NCBI GenBank assembly: GCA_947172415.1
Contig: OX359192.1
Span: 3,474,501-3,538,500, forward strand
Reading direction: 5' to 3'
Source: Chondrosia reniformis
Taxonomy: Eukaryota > Porifera > Demospongiae > Chondrillida > Chondrillidae
Length of the DNA stretch: 64,000 nucleotides
The first letter of the stretch is position 1, and each line of letters opens with the position of its first letter. Of this stretch, positions 1,380 through 32,618 are shown one piece after another. The position numbers and the translations under genes were made by a program. The notes beneath the pieces were generated by a model. It searched no databases, was not told the DNA's origin, and saw only the letters and a list, made by a program, of their open reading frames with translations.

Positions 1380-1545
1380 GTGGGAATTGGAGGCTGTGGT
1401 TCCGAGCTGACAAGAGGATGGGTATTGTCCAGTTCAACCCCCCGACGGAGCAGGGTGCTTAGCCCTTCATGTGGCATCCTGTGGCTAAATCAGCCTCCCT
1501 GTCAGCATGGGCTAACCCCCTGTCTGGCAGCTTCACTGGGTTACG

Positions 1546-4500
1546 TTGCGCCATGAGAATGACAATTTTCAAGACAGGCTGTGGCCTAGGTGCATCAGTG
1601 GTGAAGAAAACCCTGGGTCAACCAGAATAGGTGATTCCACTGGTGCCTCACAGGTAGATGTACCTGAATGTAATAACCCTTCTTCGGCCCCCGTGATGGG
1701 CCAACCAGCCCTCTGGACCGAGGAAATGGTTAGGGCACTAATTGATTGCTTTGAGCGATCTGAACCCAAAAGAGGTGGCTATCAAAAGCGTTTAGAGCAG
1801 GAATGGCTGAGCAAATACCCACATTTGCCTCAGACCGGTTGAACCCTTGACTTCCAAGCCAAAAGGAACTTGGTAGGAGATGGAGTACTGCAAGTAACGG
1901 GTAGCCGAGATTTAGATTTGGTTAATGATGCACCGCAAGGTGCCTCTAGAAGGAGAAGGATCCAAGGGGTGATCTGGAACCTTCAGAGGGATAATATCCT
2001 CATGGAGCTCTACCGAGAAAGTAAGCCCATGGAAAAGGGGTATGCCAAGCGGTTGTACCGGGCTTGGAATGCTAAAATGCCAGACCATAAAACCACAAAG
2101 GTAGCGCTAACTACGAGAATTAGTAGAATCCGAAGAGGTCAAGGTCTCTCGAGACTAAACCTTATGGAACCTGACTCTTTTGGTTTAGCCACCCTAACTG
2201 AGACTGTGGAGGAAGGTGTGGGAGCCCAGGGGCAAGGCGAGCTTCACCAAGTTCAGGCTGTGACTGAACAAAATGGTGAGCTGCCTGCAGCCCCTGTTGA
2301 AACTCCTGCAATTGATCATCCTAGTCCTAGGACAAGTGGCAATGATCAACTGATGCAATTTTTAGGCAAAGCAAAAGATGCCTGTCTCCGAAAGAAACCT
2401 GGAGATTTCTCTGATAGAAAACCCTGTGGGGTAGTGCGGTTCAACCATGTTGATACGGCACTGCTTCAGGAGGCCAATAATTGGGTGGAGAAAGAGTGGC
2501 AGGAAGGCCCTAGGTCGGCCTGGCACCCGAACTGCCTAGTCTACTCTGTTGCTATGGCTGTGAGGGGAAAAACAACCTACAAATCGCAGCCATGCAACCA
2601 GGGAAGGAAATCAGATAATCAGAAGGGAAGTAAGAGACAGGAAGGTCATATAAGTGACAGGAAGGCCAAAGGCCTTAGGTTTAGAAGACTGCTTGCCTGG
2701 TTGGATGTGGAAATAGCGCGTCAACAGAATAATAATCCTATGACCAAACGCCAGAAAGTACTCCGAAGAAAGCTTAGGAGGGAGTTCCATTCATTAAACC
2801 TGAATGTGCTGATCAGAGCTCGGGAACAGACACTGGGGAAACTCAGGGTCTGGACCCTACAAGAGCGAAGATCGGCTGAACACAGGAAATTCCAGGAACA
2901 AAACCACCTTTGGAATACCCAAAGGAAGTTCCGGATGAATGGCAATGTTCCAACCTCCAATGAAGCTCCCTCAATTGAGGTAGTAAGAGACTTTTGGACA
3001 AAGATTGTAAGTACTGTTGGTAAGGTCAACAAAGACGACCCAGGGGTGAAAGAATGGCTAAAGGAAACCAAAAAGAGGGTGGGTAGAACCTCCTCTGAAG
3101 GTCCTGATAGCATTGATGAGACCAAACTGAAGAAAGCCTTGAAAAAGGCAAAAAGCTGGTCAGCCCCTGGGCCGGATGGCATTCACACTTTTTGGTGGAA
3201 AGCACTCCCCTCTGCACAGTCTGCCTTGGCAGATGTACTACGGAGGGTGGTGAGCGGAGATCTGTCAGTCCCAGACTGGCTTACAAAGGGTCGCACTCTA
3301 CGCATCCCCAAAAAGGGTGACCCAAAAAGTGTGGCCAACTACCGACCTATTGCGTGTTTCAACACAATGTACAAGGCTGTCACAGCATACATTGCATCAG
3401 AATTACTCACTTACACCTACACTAATGATCTTTTACCTATGGCTCAATGAGCCATGAGAAAAGGGAGGTGGGGCTGTGTGGACTGTCTACTGCTGGATCA
3501 ATCAATCGGTCTAGATGCCAAAATTATGGGCAAGCCACTTAGTGTGGCATGGATCGATTATGAGAATGCATATGACAGAGTCCCTCACAAGTGGGTGATG
3601 AAGGTGCTAAAAACCATCAAGTGCCCAGGTTGGATCCGGAGGTCTATAGAGCTCTTCTCCAAACACTGGGCTACTGTGCTTGAGTTGAGGACTGTGGGGA
3701 AGGTGGTTAGGAGCACCCCTGTTAAATATAACAGGGGACTCTTCTAAGGAGACTCCCTATCGCCATTCCTCTTTTGTCTGGCCATAGCTCCCATTTCCCA
3801 AGTTCTTAACAGAACCAAGGGATATACCCTCTGGCATAATGGGGAAAGGAACACCATGTCACACTTGCTGTACATGGATGACCTTAAGATATATGCTGGA
3901 GGGCCTAATAAACTCAGGAAAGCCATGGAATGTGTGGAGAAAACCTCAAATGCCATTGGCATGAGGTTTGTAGTGAGAAAGTGTGGAACAGCTCACATGC
4001 AAAAGGGGAAGTTCTGGCTGGCCCAGAAAATCCTGAATGCAGTGAAGAATCCATAAGAAGCCTTGAAAAAGGTACTACCTATAAGTACCTAGGGCTAGAA
4101 CAACTGTTTGAGGTAGATGACAGCAAGGTCAAAGCTTGCTTGATCAATGAATTGAGGAGGAGACTCCACAAAGTGTGGGGCTCTCACCTCAATGGTAAGA
4201 ATGCTGCAGAAGCCTCTAACATGTTGTGTGCCTCTTTATTGAGATACACTTACCCAGTTTTGAAGTGGACTCAAAGTGAGCTTCCAAAACTGGACCGAAT
4301 GGTGAGAAAGATCATGAGAAAGTACCAGTGTCATCACTATAACTCTGCCATTGAAAGAGTGAATTTGCCTTGCTCTCAAGGTGGTAGAGGGCTCTGTAGT
4401 TTTCCTTTGGATCACGACAGGGCTGTTGTGAATCTGGCAAGATACCTCCATACTGCCAATCATCCACTCATAGCTGTTGTGGTTAAACACCAAAAGTGGC

Positions 4501-5435
4501 TGGAGTGCTCAAAGCAGAGGAGGACTGTCTTGAAAGAAGCCAGATTGATACTGTGGCTAAAGACAGATCCCTCACAAAATAGTGTAAGAGAATGGAGGAG
4601 AGTGGCACGTGAGCTCCGGGAGGCTCAGACTGAAAGGTTAAAAAGTAACCTACCTGAAAAGTCTCACCAGGGCTCATACCACAGACAAGTCACAAATAGG
4701 GAGTCTTATGTGTGGCTTTCTGAGGGGAGACTCAGACCTCAAACTGAGGCTCTGATTCTCGCAGCCCAAGATGATGTGCTGCACACTAGGTGGTACCAAA
4801 ATAGGATTCTGAAGAATTCTAGCCTCCTAATGTGCAGAGAATGTGGCAAGGCTCTGGAAACAGTCAAACACATACTAAACATGTGTGAGCCCAAGGGATT
4901 TTCTCTCTACAAAGAGAGACATGATCGGGCAATACTGATAGTGTTGTGGAGACTGTTGAAAGAATATGGATTCAAGCAGGAAGAGCCCTGGTACAAACTA
5001 GAAGCAAAACCAGTCTATGAGAATAGGTCTGTCAAAATCTTGTTGGATCCTAATATCCCTACAGATGATGAAATGACAGAAAGAAGGCCAGACTTAGTGG
5101 TTGAGGATCGGCTATGTAAGTCCATCTTCATTATTGAGATGTCAGTTCCTACTGACAGTAATATTAATGGAAGATGGCAAGAGAAGTTCCAAAAGTACCA
5201 GAAGCTGGCGGCTGATATGAGGAAACAATTTAGGGGCTACCGAATTAAGGTAGTCCCGATGATAATTGGTGCTTTGGGGACAGTGGACACGCTCTTGGAA
5301 GACCTAAGTGGAATTCCAAAGCTGTCAAAAAGTGCAATAGAAGTGATGAGAGCGATGCAGAGAACTGTTCTCTGCTCGGCTGTAAGGATATTGAGGCGAC
5401 ATCTATCTGTTGAGGGATTGGAGCCTGGACGATAG
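1546..5435 (+). pseudogene. Retrotransposon polyprotein, Myb-RT-CCHC-RLE, copy 1
   Basis: One frame of about 1,296 codons from ATG 1546 to TAG 5433-5435, interrupted four times. In-frame stops lie at 1840-1842, 3448-3450 and 3745-3747; copy 3 has CGA, TGG and CAA there. A one-base deletion near 4011 (GAAGTTCT against GAAGGTTCT in copy 3) shifts the remainder to the next frame. Domains: two Myb-like repeats (W at residue 57 and W at 144, each with a GY.KRL...W helix), a basic linker, reverse transcriptase from about residue 540 (SAPGPDGIH, NYRPIA, motif A WIDYENAYD with Asp 671, motif B broken by the third stop, YMDD at 3871-3882), a CX2CX8HX4C knuckle at 4833-4886, and an RLE core RRPDLVV (5083-5103) with downstream IEM Glu at 5136-5138 and KYQKLA. 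By family knowledge the protein nicks target DNA and copies its own RNA onto it. As it stands it cannot make full-length protein unless stops are read through or edited. Confidence 0.9.
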
Positions 5436-5707
5436 GTAGTCCTGTCCCAGTCCTTGCCTGTCAACCTCTGGAAAGTAGTGGTGGATTTGTGTATGGAGGT
5501 ACTCCCTCCTATTATGACGGTCAACTTTGGCCCGACGTGCACCTGTCTGCTGCTGCCGGAAAGAGGCAAAGCCGAGGCTTCTGGCTAAAAACCCAAAGAA
5601 AGGAAAACATAACTGACTGAGGGTTGTCCAAGCCAGATACTCCTTGCCTAAGTACACTAAGGCAAGAAGTAAGAAGGTTCTCCATTAAGGCTTTTGTTTC
5701 TAAAGTA
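5436..5707 (+). other. Retrotransposon 3' UTR, copy 1
   Basis: About 270 bases after the TAG stop, nearly the same in copies 1 and 3 and ending without a poly(A) tract. In R2-like elements the 3' UTR RNA is what the reverse transcriptase recognises, so conservation here is expected. Any particular fold in this copy is inference. Confidence 0.55.
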
Positions 5708-7518
5708 ATATGAACTAGTTATATTTACTAGGTGTATGGACTAGTTGTATGTACTAGTATATACTAGGCTTATTTACCAGTTGTAGGTACAAGTTGTATG
5801 TACAAGTTTATGTAATAGTTGTTTGTACTGATTGTATGTACTAGTTGTATGTACTAGTTGTAAGTACCAAATATGTCGTTGTTGTTTATGCACTTTTTAT
5901 TGACTAGTTGTATGAACTAGTTTTATGAACTAGTTGGAGGTACTATTACTGGTAATATTAAAGAGTTGTAGGTACTATTACTGGTAATATTAAGGAGTTG
6001 TAGGTACTACTTGTATGTACTAGTTATATGTAGTAGTTATATATACTAGTTATATGTACTAGTTATATGTACAGGTATATATACTAGCTATATATATATA
6101 CTAGTTTTGTACTACTTCTATTTACTAGTTGAAATACTAATTATATGTACTAGTTGTATGTTCTATTTGTATGTATTATTTGCATGTACTAGTTATATTT
6201 ACTAGTTGTAGGTTTCAGTAGTGTGTACTAGTTGTATGAACTGAATGTATGTAATTTACTAGTTGTATGTACTGGTACTAGTTATATTTACTCCTTGAAG
6301 ATACTAAATGTACGTACAATTTATTTGAACTAGTTTTATTGACTACTTAAATGTACTAGTTGTATGTAATAGTTATATTTACTACTTGTATGAACTAGTT
6401 TCATGTACTAGTTGTATGGACTAGTTGTATGTCCTAGTACTAGGTTGATTTACTAGTTGTAGGTACAAGTTGTATGTAGAGATTTAATATAATAGTTTTA
6501 TGTATGTTCTAGTTGTATGTACTAGTTGTATATACTAGTTTTGTTGTATATAGCTGTTTGTGCTAGTTGTATTAACTAGTTGTATGCACTATTTACTAAT
6601 TGTATGTCCTAGTTGTTTGTTCTGGTTGTATGTGCTAGTTGTATTTACCAGTAATATGTACTAGTTGGGTGTACTAGTTGTAGATACCAGTGGTAGTTCT
6701 AGTTTTATGTACTAGTTGTAGATACTAGTTGTATGTACTAGTTGTAAGTAATAGTTATATGTACTAGTTGAATGAAGTAGTTGTTTATACTAGTTGTATG
6801 TACTCGTTGTATGTTCTCCTTGCTAGTTTTATGTACAAGTTGAAGGTACTAGTTGTTTGTAGTAGTTATATTTACTAGTTGTATGAACTAGTAACATGTA
6901 CTAGTTGAATGGACTAGTTGTATGTACTATTTAAGTAGTAGTTGTTTGTGCTAGTTGTATTAACTAGTTGTATGGACTATTTTTGAACTAGTTGTATGAA
7001 CTAATTGTATGAAATAGTTGTCTAAAATCGTTGTAGGTACTATTACTTTTCATATTAACTAGTTGTAGGTACTACTTGTATGTACTACTGGTATGTACTA
7101 GTTGTATGTACTAGTTTTGTACTAGTTGTTTGTGCTAGTTGTATGAACTAGTTGTATGAACTAGTTACTAGTTGAAAGTTCTAGTTGTATGTTCTATATG
7201 TATATACTAGTTATATGTACTAGTTTTGTGTACTAGTTGGAGGCACTAGTTGTAGGTATTAGTACTGGTAATATTAACTAGTTGTAGGTACTACTTGTAT
7301 GTACTACTGGTATGTACTAGTTGTATGTACTAGTTTTGTACTAGTTGTTTGTGCTAGTTGTATGAACTAGTTGCATGAACTAGTTACTAGTTGAAAGTTC
7401 TAGTTGTATGTTCTATATGTATATACTAGTTATATGTACTAGTTTTGTGTACTAGTTGGAGGCACTAGTTGTAGGTATTAGTACTGGTAATATTAACTAG
7501 TTGTAGGTACTACCTGTA
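5708..7518 (+). repeat. 13-bp satellite array, forward
   Basis: Forward satellite with higher-order structure, including the phrase TACTGGTAATATTAA that recurs after GGTACTATTAC or GTATTAG at several points. From the retrotransposon 3' boundary onward the block is paralogous to 44310-46003. No gene seen. Confidence 0.9.
7061..7498 (+). repeat. 219-bp tandem duplication in the array
   Basis: Two successive units with an offset of 219 bases (7061-7279 and 7280-7498), followed by the start of a third just before the TIR element. The paralogue ending at 46003 has one shorter unit, so the duplication probably followed the split of the two blocks. It also occurs in copy B at 23927-24364. Confidence 0.8.
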
Positions 7519-8774
7519 CACTGGTACCTTATGACTGTTCCTTAGGGATAGGCTGCCTTATAGCGATCAACACGTAACAAGCGATAATTAATAAAGAATT
7601 TTTGTTTTCAATCGGTAAGAGTGAATGCGTCATTTAGTGTTATCGGTTACACACCGGAAGGAATTTAAAATCGTCCATTGTTAAATTGGTTATAGCATCC
7701 TTTGGCTTAATTGATTTACATATTGTATATAATCATCTCGCTTCGTATCATTTTCTTATAATCGTCTCACTTCGTATCCTATTAATGTTTTATTTTATCG
7801 TCTCACTTCGTACGTATTGTATTATACAATTAATGTAAAGCTATAAAATGATTCACTTCTCTAGCTATCGTCGAATACTTACTTTTTACGTACCTTTTGT
7901 TAACGAATAATTCGTATGCAGCAACTCTTGAAAAGCCGCAGTTGAACTTCAGAGCAATCTGATTATCGACTGATATCCCTCTTGCCTTTTTGGGGGGCAT
8001 AATCTTCTCTGTTGTAGACGAAAATTCGAAAATTGGCGATCCTTAGTGTGAATAACACCTTACGGCGATCCTCAATCACTTGCGTCAACATACATACATA
8101 CATGTATACCAGTTACACAACTTAGAATTTGCGCAATATTAACATCCGGCTATAAAATTTCACCGTTTGCGTTTCAAATGTGTAAATCATCCCATGAATA
8201 AACTTATTTGCTAATGAATATGATTTAAATGTTAAGAAATGGCGTCTGTTGCAGAAGTGAAGGAAAATTGCCTATGCGCTTAAGTTAGAAGATCCTCATA
8301 GTCGCGTAGTCAGCTTCAATGGATTTAGTGAGTGTCATTTAGTAAGAATTAAGAAATCCGTTTGCGTCTGAGCTTTATTTCCCAAGATATGAAAGATTAT
8401 GTAGCATTTACTAATCAATTAAAAGTGTATTTTCACAGTTTTCTTCTCAACGGATGGGCGAATCGAAACGGACTTCTTAATTTTGTTAGAATACATTGTA
8501 ACCTTTCCAATAAAGTATTGAACATAGTTCTAGCTTTTTCCTAGACTAAGCGCATAGTGTCTGAGAGTTTTAAAATCGGCCCTTTTTAACACGTTATATC
8601 TCCGATATTGGTTGTTCAATCTCTCTCAAATTTTTGATTTCGCTGACATTTAAATAAGCGCTTCGATGTATACCAGTTTAAGTTAGCAAATCGTTTCTGT
8701 TAGAACGAAACTTGCTTTTAAAAGTGTTTATAAAAAAATGTAAAAACACGCAGATCAGTCATATGGCACCTGTG
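7519..8774. mobile_element. 1.26-kb TIR DNA element, copy 1, TA target site
   Basis: Non-satellite segment bounded by imperfect terminal inverted repeats of about 22 bp: left begins CACTGGTACCTTATGACTG and the right end, reverse-complemented, begins CACAGGTGCCATATGACTG. It is flanked by TA on both sides (7517-7518 and 8775-8776). The paralogous array at 45990-46010 reads straight through with a single TA, confirming both ends. Inside are three spaced copies of TCTCRCTTCGTA (7734-7815) and a nested inverted repeat (8347-8363 with 8466-8482, plus TATGCGCTTA with TAAGCGCATA further out). No transposase frame is present; the 60-codon frame at 8362 is broken in copy 3. A non-autonomous element; I cannot assign the superfamily. 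Confidence 0.85.
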
Positions 8775-9279
8775 TATGTATTAGTTGTATGTACTAGTTG
8801 TATGTTCTAGTTATATGGACTACGTTTGTGTACTAGTTGTATGTACTATTTGTGGGACTAGTTTTATGTACTAGTTGTATGTAGTAGATGTATTTACTAG
8901 TTGTAAGTAATCGTTCTATGTGCTAGTTTTATGAAGTAGTTGTTTATATATACTAGTTTAAGGAACAAGTTGTATGTACTCGTAGCTAGTTGTATGTACT
9001 GAGTGTATGTACTCGTAGCAAATTGTATGTACTAGTTGTATGTACTAGTTATATGTACTAGTACTGGTTTTATTTATTAGTTGCAGGTAATAATTGTACG
9101 TACTAGTTGTAGGTACTAGTTGAATTTTCTAGCTGAATGTAATATTTGTATGTACTAATTTTATGCACTCGTTGTATGTACTAGTTGTATGTACTAGTTA
9201 TGTACTAATTGTTTTTGCTAGTTACTAGTTATAAGTACTAGTTGTTTGTGCTAGTTTTATGTTCTAGTTGAAAGTACGT
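8775..9279 (+). repeat. 13-bp satellite array, forward
   Basis: Continuation of the array interrupted by the TIR element; it matches 46004-46505 phrase by phrase. No gene seen. Confidence 0.9.
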
Positions 9280-10056
9280 ATAGGATATATTATGGTAAAT
9301 ATTGGTTAAAAATTGTTGGATATATTTGGCAAAACTATGGGATATACTGGTCCATTGGATATATTAAGAAAAACTAAGGGTTATATTAGCAAAATTATGG
9401 GATATATAGGACAAAAATTATGGGATATAGTGTGGGATATATTTGACGGAAACTAAGGGGTATATTGGGTAAATCTGCGGGTTATATTAAGGGATATAAT
9501 TGGCAATATTTGTAAATTATTGGACACATTAAGCAAAAACAGGTATATATTAAGCAAAATTATGGGATATATTTGTCAAAAATTATGGGATATATTTGCA
9601 AAAACTATCGAATATATTGGGCTGAGGGTGTAGGTTATATTTTGGCATATATTTTGTAAAAGTTGTTGGATATATTTGGAAAAAAATGGGATATATTTTG
9701 GCAAAAAGGTGGGATATATTTGGAAAAATTATGGGAAATATTGGGCAAAAATTATGGGATATATTATGGGATATATTGGTCAAATATTGGGTGATATATT
9801 TGGCAAAACTATGGGATATACTGTTCCATTGGATATATTTAACAAAACTAATGGATGTTTAGGCAACATTATGGGATATATAGGCAAAAAATTATAGGAT
9901 ATACTTTGGGATATATTTGCAAAGCCATGGGATAGGATATACTGGTACATTGGATATATTAAGCAAAAAATGAGGGATTTACAAGGCAAAATTATGGGAT
10001 ATATTTGGCATTAATTGTGGGATATCTTTGCAAAACTATGGGATATATTCGGTAAC
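9280..10056 (+). repeat. GGATATATT minisatellite, copy A (truncated)
   Basis: Tandem AT-rich units of about 23 bp with core GGGATATATTTGGCAAAA and many one- or two-base variants, unrelated to the 13-bp satellite. It starts right after GAAAGTAC and stops abruptly at 10056, where reverse satellite begins. Open frames on both strands are simple translations of the unit (GYIG.. or NISHN..), not genes. Confidence 0.9.
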
Positions 10057-15484: not shown

Positions 15485-16013
15485 GAAAAATCTAAGATAC
15501 CATTTTCCTACATGCTATGCCTATTCTGTAAAAGAGACTATAGGGGAACTAAACCTGAAGAGAGCTTTGGATGAAGATACAGGAGTCTTTTCTTCCTTCT
15601 TTTCCCTTCTTTCATCTTCTTCTCTACTGGGTAAGACAGCCGTTTCTGGGAATTCCACCTTTTATCAGTGATCCTGAGAGTCTTTATCTTTTCTTTATCT
15701 TGATCTTCTGTGAATCTTTGGCTCTCTATGCTAAATCTAGGGGCCTTATATACACCAATTTGGCGCCAAAAGTTAAATAAGGTGTTAATTAAGACACATG
15801 ATGAAATTTAATTTTATGAAAGGAATGTAAGTCAAATTAAATTTTATGAATTTAATCTATTAGTAATCTTGCTTGTACAGGTAAAACAGATTCAGCATAA
15901 CCATAGACACAAGTAGGACATATTACATAAGTCTATCCTTAGGTCTTATAGTAGTAACATTCCTTTGGAGGTGGGGTAACACAATATGGGGTAACACAAA
16001 ACAGTCCTTAAGC
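15485..16013 (-). mobile_element. Possible solo LTR or LTR-derived island
   Basis: About 530 bp of non-satellite sequence. Read on the minus strand it begins near a doubled GTGTTACCCC, passes a TATA-like stretch (GTGTATATAAGGCCCC near 15740) just after the palindrome TTTGGCGCCAAA (about 15761-15772), and ends AGATTTTTCA, so TG...CA ends are possible. This resembles a U3-TATA-R layout, but there are no coding remnants, no second LTR and no convincing target duplication. The open frames of 73 and 69 codons on the plus strand are not recognisable. It could equally be a fragment of another mobile element. Confidence 0.4.
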
Positions 16014-18245
16014 ATACTAGCTACTATATAGTTGTATGTACCAGCTGTATGTACTAATTATATGTTCTACTTGTATGTACTAGGTGTATGGACTAATAAC
16101 AATCTGTATCTACGAGTTGTATGTACTAGTTGTATGTACTTATTGTGTGTAATTGTTGTACGTACTAGTTATATTTACTAGTTGTAGTTACTAGTTGTAG
16201 TTACTAGTTTTATGTACTAGTTGAATGTTCTGGTAACAAGATATATGTACTAGTTGTAGGTACTAGTTGTATGTACTAGCTGTATATCCTAATTGTACGT
16301 ACTAGTTGTATGTACTAGTTGTACGTACTTGTTGCACATACTAGTTGTATGTTCTAGTTGTCTGTACTCGTTATATGTAGTTGTTGTATGTACTAGCTGT
16401 ATGTACTAATTGTATGAACTAGTATGTAATTTTATGTACTAGTTGTATGAACTAGTTGTATGTACTAGCTAAATGTACTAGTAACAAACCTTATTTACTA
16501 GTTGTATTTACTAGTCATATGTAGTTATATGTACTAGTTATTTGTGCTCATTTTGTGAAATTGTTGTACGTACTAGTTATATTTACTAGTGATAGTTACT
16601 AATTGTATGTACTAGTTTTATGTACTAGTTTTTTGTAATTATATGTACTAGTTGTATGTACAAGTTGTGTGTAATTGATGTACATACTACTTATTTTTAC
16701 TAGTTGAAGTTACTAGTTGTATGTACTAATTTTAGGTACTAGTTGTATGTCCTAGTAACTAGTTGTATATACTAGTTGTATGTACTAGTTCTATGTTCTA
16801 GTTTTATGTACTAGCTGTATGTAAAAGTTGTATGTATTAGTTGTATGCCCTAGTAACTATCTGTATGTGCTAGTTGTATGCACTAGTAACTATCTGTATG
16901 TACTAGGTGTTTGCAATAGTTGTATGTACTAGTTGTATGTAGTTATATGTACTTGTTGTATATACTAGTTGTGTGTAATTTTTGTACATACTAGTTATAT
17001 TCACTAGATGTAGTTACCAGTTTTATGTACTAGTTATCTGTACTAGTTGTATGTCCTAGCTGTATGTACTAGTCTTATGTACTAATTATATGTACTTGTT
17101 GTTTGTTCTAGTAAGTAGTTGAATTTACTAGTCATATGTACCAGTTCTATGTACTAGTAGAATGTACTAGTTGTATGTACTAATTGTATGTACTAATTGT
17201 ATGTACTAGTTGTATGTACTAATTGTGTGTACTAGTTGTGTGTGCTAGTTGTATGTGCTAGTTGTATGTACTAGGTGTATGTACTAGTTGTATGTAGTAG
17301 TTGTATGCACTAGCTGTGCGTAATTGTTGAACGTACTAGTTATATTTACTTGTTGTAGTTACTAGCTGTAAGTACTAGTTTTATGTACTAGTTGTATGCA
17401 CTAGTAACTAGTTGTATGTACTAGGTGTATGTATTAGTTCTATGTATTAGTTGTATGTACTAGTTGTATGTACTTATTGTGTGTAATTGTTTTACATACT
17501 AGTTATATTTACTAGTTGTAGTTACTAGTTACAAGTTTTATGTTCTAGTTGTATGTTCTAATAACAAGATGTATGTTCTAGTTGCATGTACTAATTGTAT
17601 GTACTAGTTGTATGTACTAGTTGTATGTACTAGTTGAATGTACTTTTTGTATGTAGTAGTTGTGTGTACTTACTGTATGTAGTAGTTGTGTGTATTATCT
17701 GTGTGTACTAATTGTAGGTACTAATTGTATGTAATGTAATGTAGTTTTATGTACTAGTTGTATGTTCTAGTTGTATGTACTAGGTGTATGTACTAGTTGT
17801 ATGTACTAGTTTTATGTACTAGTTTTCTGTAGTAGTTGTGTGTAATTGTTGTACGTAGTAGTTATATTTACTAGTTGTAGTTACTCATTGTATGTATTAG
17901 TTTTATGTACTAGTTGTATGTAGTTATATATAGTAGTTGTATGTAGTAGTTGTGTGTAACTGTTGTAGGTACTAGCTATATTTACTAGTTGTAGTTACTA
18001 GTTGTTCTTGTAATGTACTTGTTGTATGTACTAGTTGTGTGTACTTGTTGTATGTAGTAGTTGTGTGTACTAGCTGTGTGTACTAATTGTAGGTACTAAT
18101 TGTATGTAATGGCATGTAGTTTTATGTACTAGTTGTATGTTCTAGTTGTATGTACTAGGTGTATGTACTAGTAACAATCTGTATTTACTAGTTGTATTTA
18201 CTAGTTGTATGTACTAGTTTTATGTACTAGTTTTCTGTAGTAGTT
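16014..18245 (+). repeat. 13-bp satellite array, forward
   Basis: Forward array; from 16867 it belongs to duplication copy B. No gene seen. Confidence 0.93.
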
Positions 18246-21200
18246 GTGGGAATTGGAGGCTGTGGTTCCGAGCTGACAAGAGGATGGGTATTGTCCAGTT
18301 CAACCCCCCGACGGAGCAGGGTGCTTAGCCCTTCATGTGGCATCCTGTGGCTAAATCAGCCTCCCTGTCAGCATGGGCTAACCCCCTGTCTGGCAGCTTC
18401 ACTGGGTTACGTTGCGCCATGAGAATGACAATTTTCAAGACAGGCTGTGGCCTAGGTGCATCAGTGGTGAAGAAAACCCTGGGTCAACCAGAATAGGTGA
18501 TTCCACTGGTGCCTCACAGGTAGATGTACCTGAATGTAATAACCCTTCTTCGGCCCCCGTGATGGGCCAACCAGCCCTCTGGACCGAGGAAATGGTTAGG
18601 GCACTAATTGATTGCTTTGAGCGATCTGAACCCAAAAGAGGTGGCTATCAAAAGCGTTTAGAGCAGGAATGGCTGAGCAAATACCCACATTTGCCTCAGA
18701 CCGGTTGAACCCTTGACTTCCAAGCCAAAAGGAACTTGGTAGGAGATGGAGTACTGCAAGTAACGGGTAGCCGAGATTTAGATTTGGTTAATGATGCACC
18801 GCAAGGTGCCTCTAGAAGGAGAAGGATCCAAGGGGTGATCTGGAACCTTCAGAGGGATAATATCCTCATGGAGCTCTACCGAGAAAGTAAGCCCATGGAA
18901 AAGGGGTATGCCAAGCGGTTGTACCGGGCTTGGAATGCTAAAATGCCAGACCATAAAACCACAAAGGTAGCGCTAACTACGAGAATTAGTAGAATCCGAA
19001 GAGGTCAAGGTCTCTCGAGACTAAACCTTATGGAACCTGACTCTTTTGGTTTAGCCACCCTAACTGAGACTGTGGAGGAAGGTGTGGGAGCCCAGGGGCA
19101 AGGCGAGCTTCACCAAGTTCAGGCTGTGACTGAACAAAATGGTGAGCTGCCTGCAGCCCCTGTTGAAACTCCTGCAATTGATCATCCTAGTCCTAGGACA
19201 AGTGGCAATGATCAACTGATGCAATTTTTAGGCAAAGCAAAAGATGCCTGTCTCCGAAAGAAACCTGGAGATTTCTCTGATAGAAAACCCTGTGGGGTAG
19301 TGCGGTTCAACCATGTTGATACGGCACTGCTTCAGGAGGCCAATAATTGGGTGGAGAAAGAGTGGCAGGAAGGCCCTAGGTCGGCCTGGCACCCGAACTG
19401 CCTAGTCTACTCTGTTGCTATGGCTGTGAGGGGAAAAACAACCTACAAATCGCAGCCATGCAACCAGGGAAGGAAATCAGATAATCAGAAGGGAAGTAAG
19501 AGACAGGAAGGTCATATAAGTGACAGGAAGGCCAAAGGCCTTAGGTTTAGAAGACTGCTTGCCTGGTTGGATGTGGAAATAGCGCGTCAACAGAATAATA
19601 ATCCTATGACCAAACGCCAGAAAGTACTCCGAAGAAAGCTTAGGAGGGAGTTCCATTCATTAAACCTGAATGTGCTGATCAGAGCTCGGGAACAGACACT
19701 GGGGAAACTCAGGGTCTGGACCCTACAAGAGCGAAGATCGGCTGAACACAGGAAATTCCAGGAACAAAACCACCTTTGGAATACCCAAAGGAAGTTCCGG
19801 ATGAATGGCAATGTTCCAACCTCCAATGAAGCTCCCTCAATTGAGGTAGTAAGAGACTTTTGGACAAAGATTGTAAGTACTGTTGGTAAGGTCAACAAAG
19901 ACGACCCAGGGGTGAAAGAATGGCTAAAGGAAACCAAAAAGAGGGTGGGTAGAACCTCCTCTGAAGGTCCTGATAGCATTGATGAGACCAAACTGAAGAA
20001 AGCCTTGAAAAAGGCAAAAAGCTGGTCAGCCCCTGGGCCGGATGGCATTCACACTTTTTGGTGGAAAGCACTCCCCTCTGCACAGTCTGCCTTGGCAGAT
20101 GTACTACGGAGGGTGGTGAGCGGAGATCTGTCAGTCCCAGACTGGCTTACAAAGGGTCGCACTCTACGCATCCCCAAAAAGGGTGACCCAAAAAGTGTGG
20201 CCAACTACCGACCTATTGCGTGTTTCAACACAATGTACAAGGCTGTCACAGCATACATTGCATCAGAATTACTCACTTACACCTACACTAATGATCTTTT
20301 ACCTATGGCTCAATGAGCCATGAGAAAAGGGAGGTGGGGCTGTGTGGACTGTCTACTGCTGGATCAATCAATCGGTCTAGATGCCAAAATTATGGGCAAG
20401 CCACTTAGTGTGGCATGGATCGATTATGAGAATGCATATGACAGAGTCCCTCACAAGTGGGTGATGAAGGTGCTAAAAACCATCAAGTGCCCAGGTTGGA
20501 TCCGGAGGTCTATAGAGCTCTTCTCCAAACACTGGGCTACTGTGCTTGAGTTGAGGACTGTGGGGAAGGTGGTTAGGAGCACCCCTGTTAAATATAACAG
20601 GGGACTCTTCTAAGGAGACTCCCTATCGCCATTCCTCTTTTGTCTGGCCATAGCTCCCATTTCCCAAGTTCTTAACAGAACCAAGGGATATACCCTCTGG
20701 CATAATGGGGAAAGGAACACCATGTCACACTTGCTGTACATGGATGACCTTAAGATATATGCTGGAGGGCCTAATAAACTCAGGAAAGCCATGGAATGTG
20801 TGGAGAAAACCTCAAATGCCATTGGCATGAGGTTTGTAGTGAGAAAGTGTGGAACAGCTCACATGCAAAAGGGGAAGTTCTGGCTGGCCCAGAAAATCCT
20901 GAATGCAGTGAAGAATCCATAAGAAGCCTTGAAAAAGGTACTACCTATAAGTACCTAGGGCTAGAACAACTGTTTGAGGTAGATGACAGCAAGGTCAAAG
21001 CTTGCTTGATCAATGAATTGAGGAGGAGACTCCACAAAGTGTGGGGCTCTCACCTCAATGGTAAGAATGCTGCAGAAGCCTCTAACATGTTGTGTGCCTC
21101 TTTATTGAGATACACTTACCCAGTTTTGAAGTGGACTCAAAGTGAGCTTCCAAAACTGGACCGAATGGTGAGAAAGATCATGAGAAAGTACCAGTGTCAT

Positions 21201-22573
21201 CACTATAACTCTGCCATTGAAAGAGTGAATTTGCCTTGCTCTCAAGGTGGTAGAGGGCTCTGTAGTTTTCCTTTGGATCACGACAGGGCTGTTGTGAATC
21301 TGGCAAGATACCTCCATACTGCCAATCATCCACTCATAGCTGTTGTGGTTAAACACCAAAAGTGGCTGGAGTGCTCAAAGCAGAGGAGGACTGTCTTGAA
21401 AGAAGCCAGATTGATACTGTGGCTAAAGACAGATCCCTCACAAAATAGTGTAAGAGAATGGAGGAGAGTGGCACGTGAGCTCCGGGAGGCTCAGACTGAA
21501 AGGTTAAAAAGTAACCTACCTGAAAAGTCTCACCAGGGCTCATACCACAGACAAGTCACAAATAGGGAGTCTTATGTGTGGCTTTCTGAGGGGAGACTCA
21601 GACCTCAAACTGAGGCTCTGATTCTCGCAGCCCAAGATGATGTGCTGCACACTAGGTGGTACCAAAATAGGATTCTGAAGAATTCTAGCCTCCTAATGTG
21701 CAGAGAATGTGGCAAGGCTCTGGAAACAGTCAAACACATACTAAACATGTGTGAGCCCAAGGGATTTTCTCTCTACAAAGAGAGACATGATCGGGCAATA
21801 CTGATAGTGTTGTGGAGACTGTTGAAAGAATATGGATTCAAGCAGGAAGAGCCCTGGTACAAACTAGAAGCAAAACCAGTCTATGAGAATAGGTCTGTCA
21901 AAATCTTGTTGGATCCTAATATCCCTACAGATGATGAAATGACAGAAAGAAGGCCAGACTTAGTGGTTGAGGATCGGCTATGTAAGTCCATCTTCATTAT
22001 TGAGATGTCAGTTCCTACTGACAGTAATATTAATGGAAGATGGCAAGAGAAGTTCCAAAAGTACCAGAAGCTGGCGGCTGATATGAGGAAACAATTTAGG
22101 GGCTACCGAATTAAGGTAGTCCCGATGATAATTGGTGCTTTGGGGACAGTGGACACGCTCTTGGAAGACCTAAGTGGAATTCCAAAGCTGTCAAAAAGTG
22201 CAATAGAAGTGATGAGAGCGATGCAGAGAACTGTTCTCTGCTCGGCTGTAAGGATATTGAGGCGACATCTATCTGTTGAGGGATTGGAGCCTGGACGATA
22301 GGTAGTCCTGTCCCAGTCCTTGCCTGTCAACCTCTGGAAAGTAGTGGTGGATTTGTGTATGGAGGTACTCCCTCCTATTATGACGGTCAACTTTGGCCCG
22401 ACGTGCACCTGTCTGCTGCTGCCGGAAAGAGGCAAAGCCGAGGCTTCTGGCTAAAAACCCAAAGAAAGGAAAACATAACTGACTGAGGGTTGTCCAAGCC
22501 AGATACTCCTTGCCTAAGTACACTAAGGCAAGAAGTAAGAAGGTTCTCCATTAAGGCTTTTGTTTCTAAAGTA
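18246..22573 (+). mobile_element. RLE-type non-LTR retrotransposon, copy 2 (inactivated)
   Basis: Second copy of the 1380-5707 element, carried by the 10-kb duplication rather than by a new insertion: flanks, stops and frameshift are all shared. Nothing distinguishes it from copy 1 at the sequence level that I could see. Confidence 0.92.
18412..22301 (+). pseudogene. Retrotransposon polyprotein, copy 2
   Basis: Same broken frame as at 1546-5435, with stops at 18706-18708, 20314-20316 and 20611-20613 and the frameshift near 20877. YMDD lies at 20737-20748, the CCHC knuckle at 21699-21752 and the PD of the endonuclease at 21955-21960. Duplicated together with its lesions, so it gives no independent evidence on activity. 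Confidence 0.9.
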
Positions 22574-24384: not shown

Positions 24385-25640
24385 CACTGGTACCTTATGA
24401 CTGTTCCTTAGGGATAGGCTGCCTTATAGCGATCAACACGTAACAAGCGATAATTAATAAAGAATTTTTGTTTTCAATCGGTAAGAGTGAATGCGTCATT
24501 TAGTGTTATCGGTTACACACCGGAAGGAATTTAAAATCGTCCATTGTTAAATTGGTTATAGCATCCTTTGGCTTAATTGATTTACATATTGTATATAATC
24601 ATCTCGCTTCGTATCATTTTCTTATAATCGTCTCACTTCGTATCCTATTAATGTTTTATTTTATCGTCTCACTTCGTACGTATTGTATTATACAATTAAT
24701 GTAAAGCTATAAAATGATTCACTTCTCTAGCTATCGTCGAATACTTACTTTTTACGTACCTTTTGTTAACGAATAATTCGTATGCAGCAACTCTTGAAAA
24801 GCCGCAGTTGAACTTCAGAGCAATCTGATTATCGACTGATATCCCTCTTGCCTTTTTGGGGGGCATAATCTTCTCTGTTGTAGACGAAAATTCGAAAATT
24901 GGCGATCCTTAGTGTGAATAACACCTTACGGCGATCCTCAATCACTTGCGTCAACATACATACATACATGTATACCAGTTACACAACTTAGAATTTGCGC
25001 AATATTAACATCCGGCTATAAAATTTCACCGTTTGCGTTTCAAATGTGTAAATCATCCCATGAATAAACTTATTTGCTAATGAATATGATTTAAATGTTA
25101 AGAAATGGCGTCTGTTGCAGAAGTGAAGGAAAATTGCCTATGCGCTTAAGTTAGAAGATCCTCATAGTCGCGTAGTCAGCTTCAATGGATTTAGTGAGTG
25201 TCATTTAGTAAGAATTAAGAAATCCGTTTGCGTCTGAGCTTTATTTCCCAAGATATGAAAGATTATGTAGCATTTACTAATCAATTAAAAGTGTATTTTC
25301 ACAGTTTTCTTCTCAACGGATGGGCGAATCGAAACGGACTTCTTAATTTTGTTAGAATACATTGTAACCTTTCCAATAAAGTATTGAACATAGTTCTAGC
25401 TTTTTCCTAGACTAAGCGCATAGTGTCTGAGAGTTTTAAAATCGGCCCTTTTTAACACGTTATATCTCCGATATTGGTTGTTCAATCTCTCTCAAATTTT
25501 TGATTTCGCTGACATTTAAATAAGCGCTTCGATGTATACCAGTTTAAGTTAGCAAATCGTTTCTGTTAGAACGAAACTTGCTTTTAAAAGTGTTTATAAA
25601 AAAATGTAAAAACACGCAGATCAGTCATATGGCACCTGTG
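24385..25640. mobile_element. 1.26-kb TIR DNA element, copy 2
   Basis: Copy B of the element at 7519-8774 with the same TIRs and TA flanks; it came with the segmental duplication and is not a separate insertion. Confidence 0.87.
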
Positions 25641-26145
25641 TATGTATTAGTTGTATGTACTAGTTGTATGTTCTAGTTATATGGACTACGTTTGTGTACT
25701 AGTTGTATGTACTATTTGTGGGACTAGTTTTATGTACTAGTTGTATGTAGTAGATGTATTTACTAGTTGTAAGTAATTGTTCTATGTGCTAGTTTTATGA
25801 AGTAGTTGTTTATATATACTAGTTTAAGGAACAAGTTGTATGTACTCGTAGCTAGTTGTATGTACTGAGTGTATGTACTCGTAGCAAATTGTATGTACTA
25901 GTTGTATGTACTAGTTATATGTACTAGTACTGGTTTTATTTATTAGTTGCAGGTAATAATTGTACGTACTAGTTGTAGGTACTAGTTGAATTTTCTAGCT
26001 GAATGTAATATTTGTATGTACTAATTTTATGCACTCGTTGTATGTACTAGTTGTATGTACTAGTTATGTACTAATTGTTTTTGCTAGTTACTAGTTATAA
26101 GTACTAGTTGTTTGTGCTAGTTTTATGTTCTAGTTGAAAGTACGT
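25641..26145 (+). repeat. 13-bp satellite array, forward
   Basis: Copy B of 8775-9279. The single difference I saw between the large copies lies here (T at 25778). Confidence 0.93.
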
Positions 26146-27014
26146 ATAGGATATATTATGGTAAATATTGGTTAAAAATTGTTGGATATATTTGGCAAAA
26201 CTATGGGATATACTGGTCCATTGGATATATTAAGAAAAACTAAGGGTTATATTAGCAAAATTATGGGATATATAGGACAAAAATTATGGGATATAGTGTG
26301 GGATATATTTGACGGAAACTAAGGGGTATATTGGGTAAATCTGCGGGTTATATTAAGGGATATAATTGGCAATATTTGTAAATTATTGGACACATTAAGC
26401 AAAAACAGGTATATATTAAGCAAAATTATGGGATATATTTGTCAAAAATTATGGGATATATTTGCAAAAACTATCGAATATATTGGGCTGAGGGTGTAGG
26501 TTATATTTTGGCATATATTTTGTAAAAGTTGTTGGATATATTTGGAAAAAAATGGGATATATTTTGGCAAAAAGGTGGGATATATTTGGAAAAATTATGG
26601 GAAATATTGGGCAAAAATTATGGGATATATTATGGGATATATTGGTCAAATATTGGGTGATATATTTGGCAAAACTATGGGATATACTGTTCCATTGGAT
26701 ATATTTAACAAAACTAATGGATGTTTAGGCAACATTATGGGATATATAGGCAAAAAATTATAGGATATACTTTGGGATATATTTGCAAAGCCATGGGATA
26801 GGATATACTGGTACATTGGATATATTAAGCAAAAAATGAGGGATTTACAAGGCAAAATTATGGGATATATTTGGCATTAATTGTGGGATATCTTTGCAAA
26901 ACTATGGGATATATTCGGTAACGTATGGGATATATTGGGCAAAAACTATGGGATATATTGGGCTAAGGCTATAGCTTATATTATGGGATATATTTGGCAA
27001 ATATTATGGGATTT
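26146..27014 (+). repeat. GGATATATT minisatellite, copy B (longer)
   Basis: Same 23-bp minisatellite as 9280-10056 but about 90 bases longer. It ends ATTATGGGATTTACTAG, passing into forward satellite. This probably shows the original right edge that copy A has lost. Confidence 0.9.
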
Positions 27015-28329
27015 ACTAGTTGTATGTACTAGTGAGTAGTTGTATGTACTAGTTCTATGTACTAGTTCTATGTACAAGTGCTCTGTCCTAGTTGTATGTA
27101 GAAATTGTATGTACTAGTTGTATGTCCTCGTAATTATCTGTATGTACTAGTCGTACATACTATTTTTTGTAGGTATATGTACTAGTTGTATGTACTAGTT
27201 GTGTGTAATTGTTTTACGTACTAGTTATATTTACTACTTATGGGTTTTATGTATCAGTTGTATGTACTAGCTGTATTTACTACTAGTTGTATGTACTAGT
27301 TGTGTGTGCCACTAGTTGTATGTGCTAGTTGTATTTACTTGTTATATGTACTAGTTGTATGTACTAGTTGTATATATGTTCTAGTAAGTAGTTGTATGTA
27401 CTAATTATATGCACTAGTTGTTTATTCTGGCTGAATGTACGGGTTGTAGTTATTAGTTGTATGTACTAATTGTATGTACTAGTTGTATGTACTAGTAACT
27501 AGATGTATGTTCTATTTGTATGTAATAGTTTTAGGCTTTTTATAGTACTAGTTATAGTGGGTACTAGGTAAGTACAAGTTGTAGGTACTACCTGTTTGAA
27601 CAATTTGTATGTACTAATTTCATGTACTATTTGTATGTACTAATTATATACACTAATTATTTGTTCTATGTGTATGTACTACTTGTATGTACTTGTTATG
27701 TACTAATTGTATGTACTAGTTGTATATACTAGTAAGTAGTTGCATGTACTAGTTATATGTACTAGTTGTATGTGTATGTACTAGTTTTATGTAGTAGTAG
27801 TGTGTATTAGTTTTATGTAATTGGTGTATGTACTCATTGTATGTACTAGTGTTTTGAACTAGTACTAGTTGTATTAACTAATTGTTGGTACTAGTTGTGT
27901 GTACTAGTTGTATGTAGTCATTATGAACCAATTGTATGTTCTAGTTGTATGTATTAGCTATGTACTAATTGTATATACTAGTGGTATGTAGTATTTTTAT
28001 GTAATTATTGTAAGTACTAGTTGTGTGTACTAGTCTTATGTACTAGGTGTGTGTACTATATATATGTTCTAATTTAAGTGTAAGTACTGATTATATGTAC
28101 GAATTTTGTGTAATTGTTGTATATACTACTTGTGTTTACTAGTTTTATGTACTAGTTGTATGTACTAGGTGTGTACTAGTTGTATGTACTAGTTGTATGT
28201 ATTAGTTCTATGTACTAGTTGCTAGTTGAATGTAGTAGTTTTATGTTCTCATTCTTTGAACTAGTTCTATATAATATTTGTAGTTTTAGTTGTATGAACT
28301 AGTTGTATTTACTAGTTGTATGTATAGTC
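27015..28329 (+). repeat. 13-bp satellite array, forward
   Basis: Forward array outside the large duplication, with a recurring phrase TTATAGTGGGTACTAGG (27552) also found near 35985 and 41965 (with a one-base change). No gene seen. Confidence 0.93.
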
Positions 28330-31300
28330 GTGGGAATTGGAGGCTGTTGTTCCGAGCTGACAAGAGGATGGGTATTGTCCAGTTCAACCCCCCGACGGAG
28401 CAGGGTGCTTAGCCCCTCATGTGGCGTCCTGTGACTAAATCAGCCTCCCTACCAGTATGGGCTAACCCCCTGTCTGGCAGCTTCACTGGGTTACGTTGCG
28501 CCATGAGAATGACAATTTTCAAGACAGGCTGTGGCCTAGGTGCACCAGTGGTGAAGAAAACCCTGGGTCAACCAGAATAGGTGATACCACTGGTGCCTCA
28601 CAGGTAGATGTACCTGAATGTAATAGTCTTTCGTCGGTTCCCATGACGGGCCAACCAGCCCTATGGACCGAGGAAATGGTTAGGGCACTAATTGATTGCT
28701 TTGAGCGATCTGAACCCAAAAGAGGTGGTTATCAGAAACATTTAGAGCGGGAATGGCTGAACAAATACCCACATTTGCCTCAGACTGGTCGAACCCATGC
28801 CTTCCAAGCCAAAAGGAACTTGGTAGGAGACGAAGTATTGCAAGTAACGAGTAGCCGAGATTTAGATTTGGTTAATGATGCACCGCAAGGTGCCTCTAGA
28901 AGGAGAAGGATCCAAGGGGTGATCTGGAACCTTCAGAGGGATAATATCCTCATGGAGCTCTACCGAGAAAGTAAGCCCATGGAAAAGGGGTATGCCGAGC
29001 GGTTGTACCGGGCTTGGAATGCTAAAATGCCAGACCATAAAACCACAAAAGTAGCGCTAACTATGAGAATTACTAGAATCCGAAGAGGTCAAGGTCTCTC
29101 GAGACTAAACCTTATGGAACCTGACTCTTGTGGTTTAGCCACCCTAACTGAGACTGTGGAGGAAGGTGTGGGAGCCCAGGGGCAGGGTGAGCTTCACCAA
29201 GTTCAGGCTGTGACTGAACAAAATGGTGAGCTGCCTGCAGCCCCTGTTGAAACTCCTACAAATGATCATCCTAGTCCAAGGACAAGTGGCAATGATCAAC
29301 TGATGCAACTTTTAGGCAAAGCAAAAGATGCCTGTCTCCGAAAGAAACCTGGAGATTTCTCTGATAGAAAACCCTGTGAGGCAGTGCGGTTCAACCATGT
29401 TGATACGGACTGCTTCAGGAGGCCAATAATTGGGTGGAGAAAGAGTGGCAGGAAGGCCCTAGGTCGGCCTGGCCCCCGAACTGCCTATTCTACTCTGTTG
29501 CTATGGCTGTGAGGGGAAAAACAACCTACGAATCGCAGCCATGAAACCAGGGAAGGAAATCAGATAATCAGAAGGGAAGTAAGAGACAGGAAGGTCACAT
29601 AAGTGACATGAAGGCCAAAGGCCTTAGGTTTAGAAGACTGCTTGCCTGGTTGGATGTGGAAATAGCACGCCAACAGAGTAATAATCCTATGACCAAACGC
29701 CAGAAAGTACTCCGAAGAAAGCTTAGGAGGGAGTTCCATTCATTAAACCTGAATGTGCTGATCAGAGCTCGGGAACAGACACTGGGGAAACTCAGGGTCT
29801 GGAACGCAGGAAATTCCAGGAACAAAACAACCTTTCGAATACCCAAAGGAAGTTCCAGATGAATGGCAATGTTCCAACCTCCAATGAAGCTCCCTCAATT
29901 GAGGTAGTAAGAGACTTTTGGACAAAGATTGTAGGTACTGTTGGTAAGGTCAACAAAGACGACCCACGGGTGAAAGAATGGCTTAAGGAAATCAAAAAGA
30001 GGGTGGGTAGAACCTCCTCTGAAGGTCCGGATAGCATCGATGAGACCAAACTGAGGAAAGCCTTGAAAAAGGCAAAAAGCTGGTCAGCCCCTGGGCCGGA
30101 TGGCATTCACACTTTTTGGTGGAAAGCACTCCCCTCTGCACAGTCTGCCTTGGCAGATGTACTACGGAGGGTGGTGAGTGGAGATCTGGTTTACAAGGGG
30201 TCGCAATTTACTCATCCCAAAAAGTTGACCCGAAAAGTGTGGCCAACTACCGACCTATTGCGTGTCTCAAAACAATGTACAAGGCTGTCACAGCATACAT
30301 GGCATCAGAACTACTCACTCATACCTACACTAATGATCTTTTGCCTATGGCTCAATGGGCCATGAAAAAAGGAGGTGGGACTGTGTGGACTGTCTACTGC
30401 TGGATCAATCAATTGGTCTAGATGCCAAAATTATGGGCAAGCCACTTAGTGTGGCATGGATCGATTATGAGAATGCATATGACAGAGTCCCTCACAAGTG
30501 GGTGATGAAGGTGCTAAAAACCATCAAGTGCCCAGGTTGGATCCGGAGGTCTATAGAGCTCTTCTCCAAACACTGGGCTACTGTGCTTGAGTTGAGGAAT
30601 GCGGGGAAGGTGTTAGGAGCACCCCTGTTAAATATAACAAGGGACTCTTCCAAGGAGACTCCTTATCGCCACTCCTCTTTTGTCTGGCCATAGCTCCCAT
30701 ATCCCAAGTTCTTAACAGAACCAAGGGATATACCCTCTGGCATGATGGGGAAAGGAACACCATGTCACACTTGTTCTGGAGGGCCTGATAAATTCAGGAA
30801 AGCCATGGAATGTGTGAAGAAAACCTCAAATGCCATTGACATGAGGTTTGGAGTGAGAAAGTGTGGAACAGCTCACATGCAAAAGGGGAAGGTTCTGGCT
30901 GTCCCAGACAACCCTGAACAGAGTGAATCCATAAGGGGCCTTGAAAAAGTACTAGTTATAAGTACCTAGGGCTAGAACAACAGTTTGAGGTAGATGACAG
31001 CAAGGTCAAAGCTTGCTTGATCAACTAATTGAGGAGGAGACTCCACAAAGTGTTGGGCTCTCACCTCAATGGTAAGAATGCTGCAGAAGCCTCTAACATG
31101 TTGTGTGCCTCTCTATTGAGATACTCTTACCCAGTTTTGTAGTGGACTCAAAGTGAGCTTCCAAAACTAGACCGAATGGTGAGAAAGATCATGAGAAAGT
31201 ACCAGTGTCATCACTATAACTCTGCCATTGAGAAGGTAAACTTGCCTCGCTCTCAAGGTGTTAGAGGGCTCTGTAGTTTTCCTTTGGATCACGACAGGGC

Positions 31301-32618
31301 TGTTGTGAATCTGGCAAGATACCTCCATACTGCCAATCATCCACTCACAGCTGTTGTGGTTAAACACCAAAAGTGGCTGGAGTGCTCAAAGCAGAGGAGG
31401 ACTGTCTTGAAAGAAGCCAGATTGATACTGGGAAGCCACAGAATAGAACTAGAACCGGAAATGGGGCTAAGGACAGATCCCTCACAAGGTAGTGTAAGAG
31501 AATGGAGGAGAGTGGCACATGAGCTCCGGGAGGCTCAGACTAGAAAGGTTAAAAAGTAACCTAGCCGAAAAGTCTCACCAGGGCTCATACCACACACAGG
31601 TCACAAATAGGGAGTCTTATGTGTGGCTTTCTTAGGGGAGACTCAGACCTCAAACTGAGGCTCTGATTCTCGCAGCCCAAGAAGATGTTCTGCACACTAG
31701 GTGGTACCAAAATAGGATTCTGAAGAATTCTAGCCTCCTAATGTGCAGAGAATGTGGCAAGGCTCTGGAAACAGTCAAACACATACTAAACATGTGTGAG
31801 CCCAAAGGATTTTCTCTCTACAAAGAGAGACATGACCGGGCAATACTGATAGTGTTGTGGAGACTGTTGAAAGAATATGGATTCAAGCAGGAAGAGCCCT
31901 GGTACAAACTAGAAGCAAAACCAGTCTATGAGAATAGGTCTGTCAAAATCTTGTGGGATCCTAGTATCCCTACAGATGATGAAATGACAGAAAGAAGGCC
32001 AGACTTAGTGGTTGAGGATCGGCTATGTAAGTCCATCTTCATTATTGAGATGTCAGTTCCTACTGACAGTAATATTAATGGAAGATGGCAAGAGAAGTTC
32101 CAAAAGTACCAGAAGCTGGCGGTTGACATGAGGAAACAATTTAGGGGCTACCAAATTAAGGTAGTCCTGATAATAATTGGTGCTTTGGGGACAGTGGACA
32201 TGCTCCTGGAAGACCTTAGGGGAATTCCAAAGCTGTCAAAAAGTGCAGTAGAAGTGATGAGAGCCATGCGGAGAACTGTTCTCTGTACGGCTGTGAGGAT
32301 ATTGAGGCGACATCTACCTGTTGAGGGATTAGGGCCTGGACGATAAGTAATCCTGTCCCAGTCCTTGCCTGTCAACCTCTGGAAAGCAGTGGTGGATTTG
32401 GGTATGGAGGTACTTCCTCCTATTATGACGGTCAAATTTGGCCCGACGTGCACCTGTCTGCTGCTGCCGGAAGGAGGCAAAGCCGAGGCTTCTGGCTAAA
32501 AATCCAAAGAAGGGAAAACATAAGGGACTAAGGGTTGTCCAAGCCAGATACTCCTTGCCTAAGTTAACTAAGACAGGAAGTAACAAGGTTCTCTGTTAAG
32601 GCTTTTGTTTCTGAAGTA
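28330..32618 (+). mobile_element. RLE-type non-LTR retrotransposon, copy 3 (older, degraded)
   Basis: Independent insertion of the same family: ends match copy 1 but both flanks differ. Divergence by eye is a few percent plus indels. It keeps an open codon at each of the three positions where copies 1 and 2 have stops, and the base that they lost near 4011, so it helps to reconstruct the reading frame. It also sits in forward satellite with the same polarity as copies 1 and 2. Confidence 0.9.
28496..32346 (+). pseudogene. Retrotransposon polyprotein, copy 3 (many lesions)
   Basis: The N-terminal frame is open from 28496 across both Myb-like repeats until a one-base deletion near 29409. Further damage: a deletion of roughly 30 bases near 29805, loss of part of the segment near 30190, a one-base loss near 30611, a deletion near 30772 that removes the YMDD active-site motif, and stops near 31026, 31140 and 31632. 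The C-terminal part (31741-32346) is open for 201 codons and retains the CCHC knuckle, RRPDLVV and IEM motifs. With the polymerase active site gone it is certainly dead. Confidence 0.88.

Follow-up and report, generated by a model that had tools for sequence, protein, structure and literature searches.

Does a retrotransposon that repeatedly lies within a 13-bp satellite target that satellite? The question is raised by a 64,000-nucleotide stretch of the genome of the kidney sponge Chondrosia reniformis (C4:3474501-3538500, the whole of which we call the window), where three copies of a non-long-terminal-repeat (non-LTR) retrotransposon of the type with a restriction-like endonuclease (RLE), around 4.36 kb long, are all located within such a satellite. 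We consider it likely that the element is a new RLE-type lineage resident in the 18S ribosomal RNA gene (18S rDNA), outside the R2 elements sampled, and that the 13-bp satellite is a secondary target matched to it by sequence. All the counts given below refer to the host genome of 117,379,552 bases in 15 contigs (C numbers; loci carry L numbers), the small one of which encodes cox1 with TGA as Trp.

On C4, C8 and C10 the 3'-end of the element runs into AAAGTCGTAACAAGGTTTCCGTAGG at one exact 18S site, the junction being CAAGTA followed by AAAGTCGTAACAAGG. Rfam recognised the stretch on C8 as the 3'-end of the eukaryotic small-subunit RNA (RF01960, 57 bits), and behind the 18S stretch on C10 come 5.8S (151 bits) and the start of the large-subunit RNA (91 bits). 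On C6 two copies follow one another head to tail, separated by AAAGTCGT and bordered by N. These eight bases, together with how nearly identical the copies are, make it probable that this tandem pair is rDNA too, and the pair is presumed to show the 5' junction (AAAGTCGT joined to GTCGTGGG). The four rDNA or presumed rDNA copies are 0.04-0.37% apart, and a fifth, the second C6 copy, is 0.5% away. A pattern fitting occupied and empty sites gave four exact matches, all of them element junctions and three of them in rDNA. The upstream 18S bases at the site, which we take to be GAGGAA, agree with the Rfam consensus.

Traces of 18S were also found in the element itself and beside copies elsewhere. 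An 18S tail of 14-15 bp, AAAGTCGTAACAAG(G), separates the element from a foreign flank in two non-rDNA copies (L039 and L082), which is what read-through of their RNA into 18S would produce. Furthermore, a block of the 3' untranslated region, GTAACAAGGTTCTCCGT, is a near copy of 18S with 16 identical bases and one gap; 3 of 5000 shuffles were as good, and the block is present in 28 of 30 loci. The 5' flank of L124 has a doubled GTCGT before the element (GTCGTGTCGAGGG), which resembles the inter-copy junction on C6 and suggests an RNA starting five bases farther upstream.

Regarding the satellite, a DNA search for the element gave 461 candidates, the best 40 of which were listed and 39 scored, and a 21-base pattern of the 3'-end matched 279 times when up to 3 mismatches were allowed, the reversed control 3 times. 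From these pattern matches 100 were listed and 97 typed, 23 of the 97 being already within the best full-length loci. The junction sample therefore comprised 104 records of 3'-ends: the best full-length loci gave 30 and the typed matches another 74. They were first sorted into 72 in forward satellite, 6 in reverse satellite and 26 others; L016, where the satellite is visible by eye, was reassigned from the others to the forward group, and after collapsing near-identical flanks we obtained 90 independent junctions (61 forward, 6 reverse and 23 others).

Thus, 67 of the 90 independent junctions are in the satellite, 61 of them in one orientation and 6 reversed (two-sided binomial p 1.5e-12), and the satellite itself is strand-balanced genome-wide (14,481 vs 13,779). 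The 3'-end is out of the ordinary in half of the six reverse insertions: it is aberrant in L012 and L028 and has the 18S tail in L082. In 28 of the 61 forward junctions (19 of the 42 confident ones) the flank starts at one of the 13 phases, TGTACTAGTTGTA, compared with 84 of the 1108 random positions of the window's forward satellite whose phase was confident (8%; p 1.7e-14 for all junctions and 2e-10 for the confident ones). Since orientation and phase are both strongly non-random, the satellite is a sequence-directed target. The sequence-only reading, which knew two insertions, had proposed a satellite-specific element and left room for chance. Once the copies of the whole genome are counted chance is exceeded, and the preference in orientation (61/67) and phase (28/61) stands; the specificity does not, given the 23 junctions elsewhere, a mixed tree and the copies in 18S.

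The copies are not confined to the satellite, as 23 of the 90 independent junctions were classed otherwise. Two of these are in rDNA (L019 with L063, and L048), and in one merged entry an element copy directly follows (L038 in satellite and L056 on C6). L055 adjoins part of the interior of a related copy (77% identity) and L095 lies in a second satellite; the other 18 include L106, L107 and L039. The 3'-ends of L106 and L107 deviate from the rest, and these loci are perhaps older or diverged relatives of the family. In L021, L058, L066 and L098 the AAGTA end is separated from the flank by additional A-rich sequence, which may be non-templated.

A tree built from 34 copies does not separate dispersed copies from satellite copies of either orientation, and the rDNA copies are placed among them; the nearest rDNA copy is 0.23% to 3.9% away, and no satellite-only lineage appears. 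The tree fits the rDNA copies as sources. Uninterrupted frames of at least 1316 codons were found in 12 of the 30 loci examined, and dN/dS was around 0.2 in nine intact frames (36 pairs), although selecting intact frames favours a low value. L024 and L037, which are not sisters in the tree, share the same site (GAGGAT^GRGGATGTCCA) in similar flanks, perhaps those of a dispersed repeat.

The nick itself was approached through target-site duplications, for which 41 junction pairs were examined. A duplication of 9-17 bp was found in 19 pairs, less certain inside repeats, and 22 had no usable one; L034 and L036, among the resolved sites, are one duplicated insertion. WRGWW stands at the leftmost nick in 9 of the 19 resolved sites (TAGTT^, AAGTT^, AGGTT^, AGGAT^), and in 11 if a shift within the ambiguous bases is allowed. 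Microhomology of at least 2 bases with the element end was scored by script in 15/19 sites, or in 11/14 with the usual element 3'-end, the four sites lost being those whose last bases are not that end. In the 33.8 kb of satellite in the window, WRGWW directly followed by GTA occurs 722 times forward and 50 times reverse, near the observed 61:6, whereas neither half alone is strongly one-sided (WRGWW 2096 forward and 1853 reverse; GTA 2931 and 1739). The composite WRGWW^GTA fits the 18S site and could explain both the orientation and the phase in the satellite. In vitro, R2 uses base pairing between the nicked primer and 5 nt of downstream rRNA carried by the template (PMC12180492), as we propose for the 3'-end of this element.

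At the other end, the element starts five bases earlier than is apparent. GTCGT precedes GGGAATT in 36 of 45 upstream records (copy 3 of the window included) and GTTGT in 4; among the 57 fetched loci, 12 have a 5'-end at the full-length place and 45 have none there. These 5'-ends coincide with base 1 of a predicted fold like the hepatitis delta virus (HDV) ribozyme. Folded by hand, the first 122 bases give P1 GUCGUGG/CCCCGAC (one mismatch), P2 GGAGGCUG/CAGCCUCC, P3 GAGCUG/CAGUUC, P4 CAGGGUGC/GCAUCCUG and a J4/2 with CUAA. A strict descriptor, with thresholds set after seeing the sequence, matches base 1 of a homologous copy (L021) and two other element starts, against 1 of 150,000 shuffled starts, and is kept in 21 of 28 full-length copies; the descriptor thus points to a putative HDV-like ribozyme at the 5'-end. 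In L017 the first ~19 element bases are repeated twice ahead of the full 5'-end (GTCGTGGGAATTGGAGGCC), as template jumping would give.

Taken together, a mechanism can be proposed. The element resides at the 18S site, as observed on three chromosomes, and would be co-transcribed there with the rRNA. The HDV-like ribozyme would cut the RNA just before GUCGU, where the 5'-ends of the element begin; a bottom-strand nick by the encoded protein would follow a WRGWW-like motif, and the GUA at the 3'-end of the RNA, with its rRNA tail, would pair with the nicked primer. 18S would supply AGGAA^GTA and the satellite TAGTT^GTA, the latter almost only forward, so that many off-target insertions would end up in the satellite with a single orientation and, for the most part, a single phase. 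The rDNA copies would be the renewing source and the satellite a sink where copies persist and decay. A further reading goes beyond this: in a sponge, a lineage outside R2 would have come to parasitise 18S rDNA independently, and a composite code of endonuclease motif and pairing of the RNA 3'-end with the primer would set how it spills over into a centromere-like satellite. We offer this further reading tentatively and give it slightly less than an even chance.

Several observations weigh against an 18S-resident element with a sequence-matched secondary target. Concerted evolution alone could keep the rDNA copies alike. Because the upstream part of the 18S gene reads N, empty sites, occupancy and an ordinary rDNA 5' junction are unreadable. 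Furthermore, 19 of the 90 independent junctions are neither in this satellite nor in rDNA nor beside another copy. Regarding the code, the nick motif was inferred after the sites had been seen, no more than 6 of the 19 resolved sites carry the complete WRGWW^GTA and 8 of the 19 lack WRGWW even with the shift. Phase 8, the best match to AGTCGTA downstream of the 18S site, is used in 3 of 61 junctions; the motif AGTYGTA, shared by 18S and satellite downstream of the site, predicts that phase and was therefore rejected as the cause. As for the ribozyme, a looser descriptor matches at numerous positions of the element and in 233 of 1500 shuffles, Rfam gave no ribozyme match at E<=10, and a pseudoknot-free model gives the RNA an ordinary folding energy relative to shuffled sequences (z -0.17).

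The satellite could instead be the native target and the rDNA copies the off-targets. Such a satellite-specific lineage would account for 67 of the 90 independent junctions falling, with one orientation and phase, in an estimated 8.4 Mb or about 7% of the genome (from 28,260 exact 18-mers, assuming the density of the window, 137 18-mers per 40.8 kb). Nevertheless, the lowest divergence is that of the rDNA copies, which occupy a single exact site, the tree scatters the satellite copies among the others, two non-rDNA copies carry 18S tails, and the 5' GTCGT of the element repeats the GTCGT of the 18S target. We therefore regard a native satellite target as unlikely, and a lineage restricted to the satellite was rejected in view of the rDNA copies, the dispersed copies and the tree.

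Two other explanations need no recognition of the satellite by the endonuclease. If the GUA at the RNA end simply annealed at any satellite GTA, the microhomology of the resolved sites would follow from it, by script and with the usual element end alike. However, the background has GTA ahead of phase 8 more frequently than ahead of phase 4 (260 vs 181 of 525), yet the junctions use them 3 and 28 times (p 5e-8), and GTA alone is only 1.7-fold commoner forward; microhomology as the only cause was therefore rejected, and we judge an explanation of this kind even less probable than a native satellite target. Alternatively, insertion would be random and copies would be retained in gene-poor heterochromatin, being purged from the arms while those in the satellite survive and multiply with it. 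Element copies are actually concentrated mid-chromosome and some junctions are duplicates (104 records gave 90), but retention cannot create the 61:6 orientation or the 28/61 phase peak after duplicates are collapsed. It may still add to the enrichment; as the explanation it is very improbable, the least credible of the three. An element resident in 18S, with the satellite as its secondary target, is the reading that we prefer.

Regarding the protein, the reverse transcriptase (RT) of a homologous copy matches Pfam RVT_1 at 2.3e-29 and its best PDB matches are R2 proteins (1.7e-22). The element thus has the non-LTR reverse transcriptase of an RLE-type element, and it also bears the marks of target-primed integration, namely a fixed 3'-end, target-site duplications and variable 5'-ends. 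A PDB search with a fragment from the window gave no match, and NCBIfam gave only a distant group II intron RT match, below its cut-off. The sequence-only reading had placed two Myb-like domains at the N-terminus. The structural model does suggest two three-helix modules there, with low confidence (mean predicted local distance difference test, pLDDT, 53), and Pfam has no match in that region; a C2H2 zinc finger, unlike in R2, was not found in the N-terminal part either.

RT identity to R2Bm, R2Tg and 9nl2 (a second vertebrate R2, by inference that of a turtle) is 25-29%, versus 33-38% between R2 A and D, as pairwise identities among four sequences without a tree. The distance of the RT from R2 A and D thus exceeds that between A and D themselves, which is as far as the identities place the RT, and R2 membership was rejected on these values. 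The motif that we take to mark the R2 site (TAGCCAAA) occurs in none of the 104 flanks, and the rDNA copies that were read lie in 18S. Some RT motifs, such as FQGDSLSPLLFC, may be closer to those of R4, HERO or NeSL. These clades are described as mostly or partly target-specific (PMC4640811).

Comparison with known systems bears on novelty. R2 has one open reading frame without an early AUG, and the reading frame of this element lacks an early AUG as well. Likewise, both share similarity in RT and CCHC motif and an HDV-like 5' ribozyme, predicted here and described for R2 in many animals, where it often takes in rRNA sequence (PMC3774820), but the R2 target is 28S, whereas ours is 18S with an RT outside A and D. 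R8 of Hydra is also an RLE-type element in the 18S rRNA gene (PMC5035012, PMC7650587), the likeness being one of target gene. Because R8 is inside R2A (PMC5035012) and the present RT, at 25-29% to R2A and R2D, is outside both, membership in R8 was also rejected. In sponges, a 2026 survey reports, in its main text, R2-homologous or Utopia elements, some with a Myb domain, which lie off the R2 28S site with variable flanks and were classed as non-site-specific (PMC13188248), whereas the present element is found at an exact 18S site. Neither 18S nor Chondrosia is mentioned in that main text, and among the open-access papers that our searches listed we found no report of an 18S-specific sponge element.

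If the tentative reading is right, nature offers here an instance of target specificity poised between rDNA and satellite. The element would also be an RLE-type one directed at rDNA in a sponge, the host group whose R2-homologous elements the survey called non-site-specific (PMC13188248, main text). It would bear on how rDNA targeting arose. The many independent insertions amount to a natural experiment, and a short rule may predict the orientation and position of off-target insertions, which would be relevant to engineered R2-type insertion tools.

Table 1. Location of the element copies, their parts and the satellite in the window.
Feature	Position	Strand	Remarks
Copy 1 of the retrotransposon	1377..5707	+	Frames broken; surrounded by forward satellite
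HDV-like ribozyme fold, predicted (P1, P2, P3, P1', P4, J4/2 with CUAA, P2')	1377..1498	+	Folded by hand; predicted cleavage just before 1377
Two Myb-like modules, putative (first from 1705, second 1948-2136)	1705..2136	+	Helix pattern in the model of copy 3
Reverse transcriptase region, SAPGPDG (3160) to YMDD (3882)	3160..3882	+	Broken in copy 1; homologous copy
C-terminal CCHC zinc knuckle	4833..4886	+	Aligned to R2 protein at 8.7 bits
PD..E motif, presumed restriction-like endonuclease	5082..5147	+	By eye; fold model of the region with pLDDT 35
AAGTA, element 3'-end	5703..5707	+	Matches the 18S junction, AAGTA followed by AAAGTCG
Copy 2	18243..22573	+	Exact duplicate of copy 1 via a 16,866-bp tandem duplication; no separate insertion
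Copy 3	28327..32618	+	Independent insertion; frames broken; 92.6% identity to copy 1; within forward satellite
Longest forward 13-bp satellite tract (TGTATGTACTAGT)	32658..48904		Beside copy 3

Within the window, the two independent insertions of equal polarity in forward satellite that had been read from the sequence were confirmed as copies 1 and 3. The identity of copies 1 and 2 comes from a self-repeat of the window at offset 16,866: positions 1-10056 equal 16867-26922 with one base different over 10,056 bp (identical over 1-8911 and 8913-10056). This duplication, which begins at or to the left of the first base of the window, is either recent or a duplication of the assembly. The longest open frames of the three copies are 526, 526 and 338 amino acids. 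At the 3' junctions AAGTA is followed by ATATGAACTAG in copy 1 and by TACTAGGTG in copy 3, and the phases differ by plain count.

Finally, a second satellite-like repeat, with a unit of ~22-23 bp (ATTATGGGATATATTTGGCAAAA), is present at 9545-10049 and 26411-26966 of the window, and the element copy L095 is located in a repeat similar to it.

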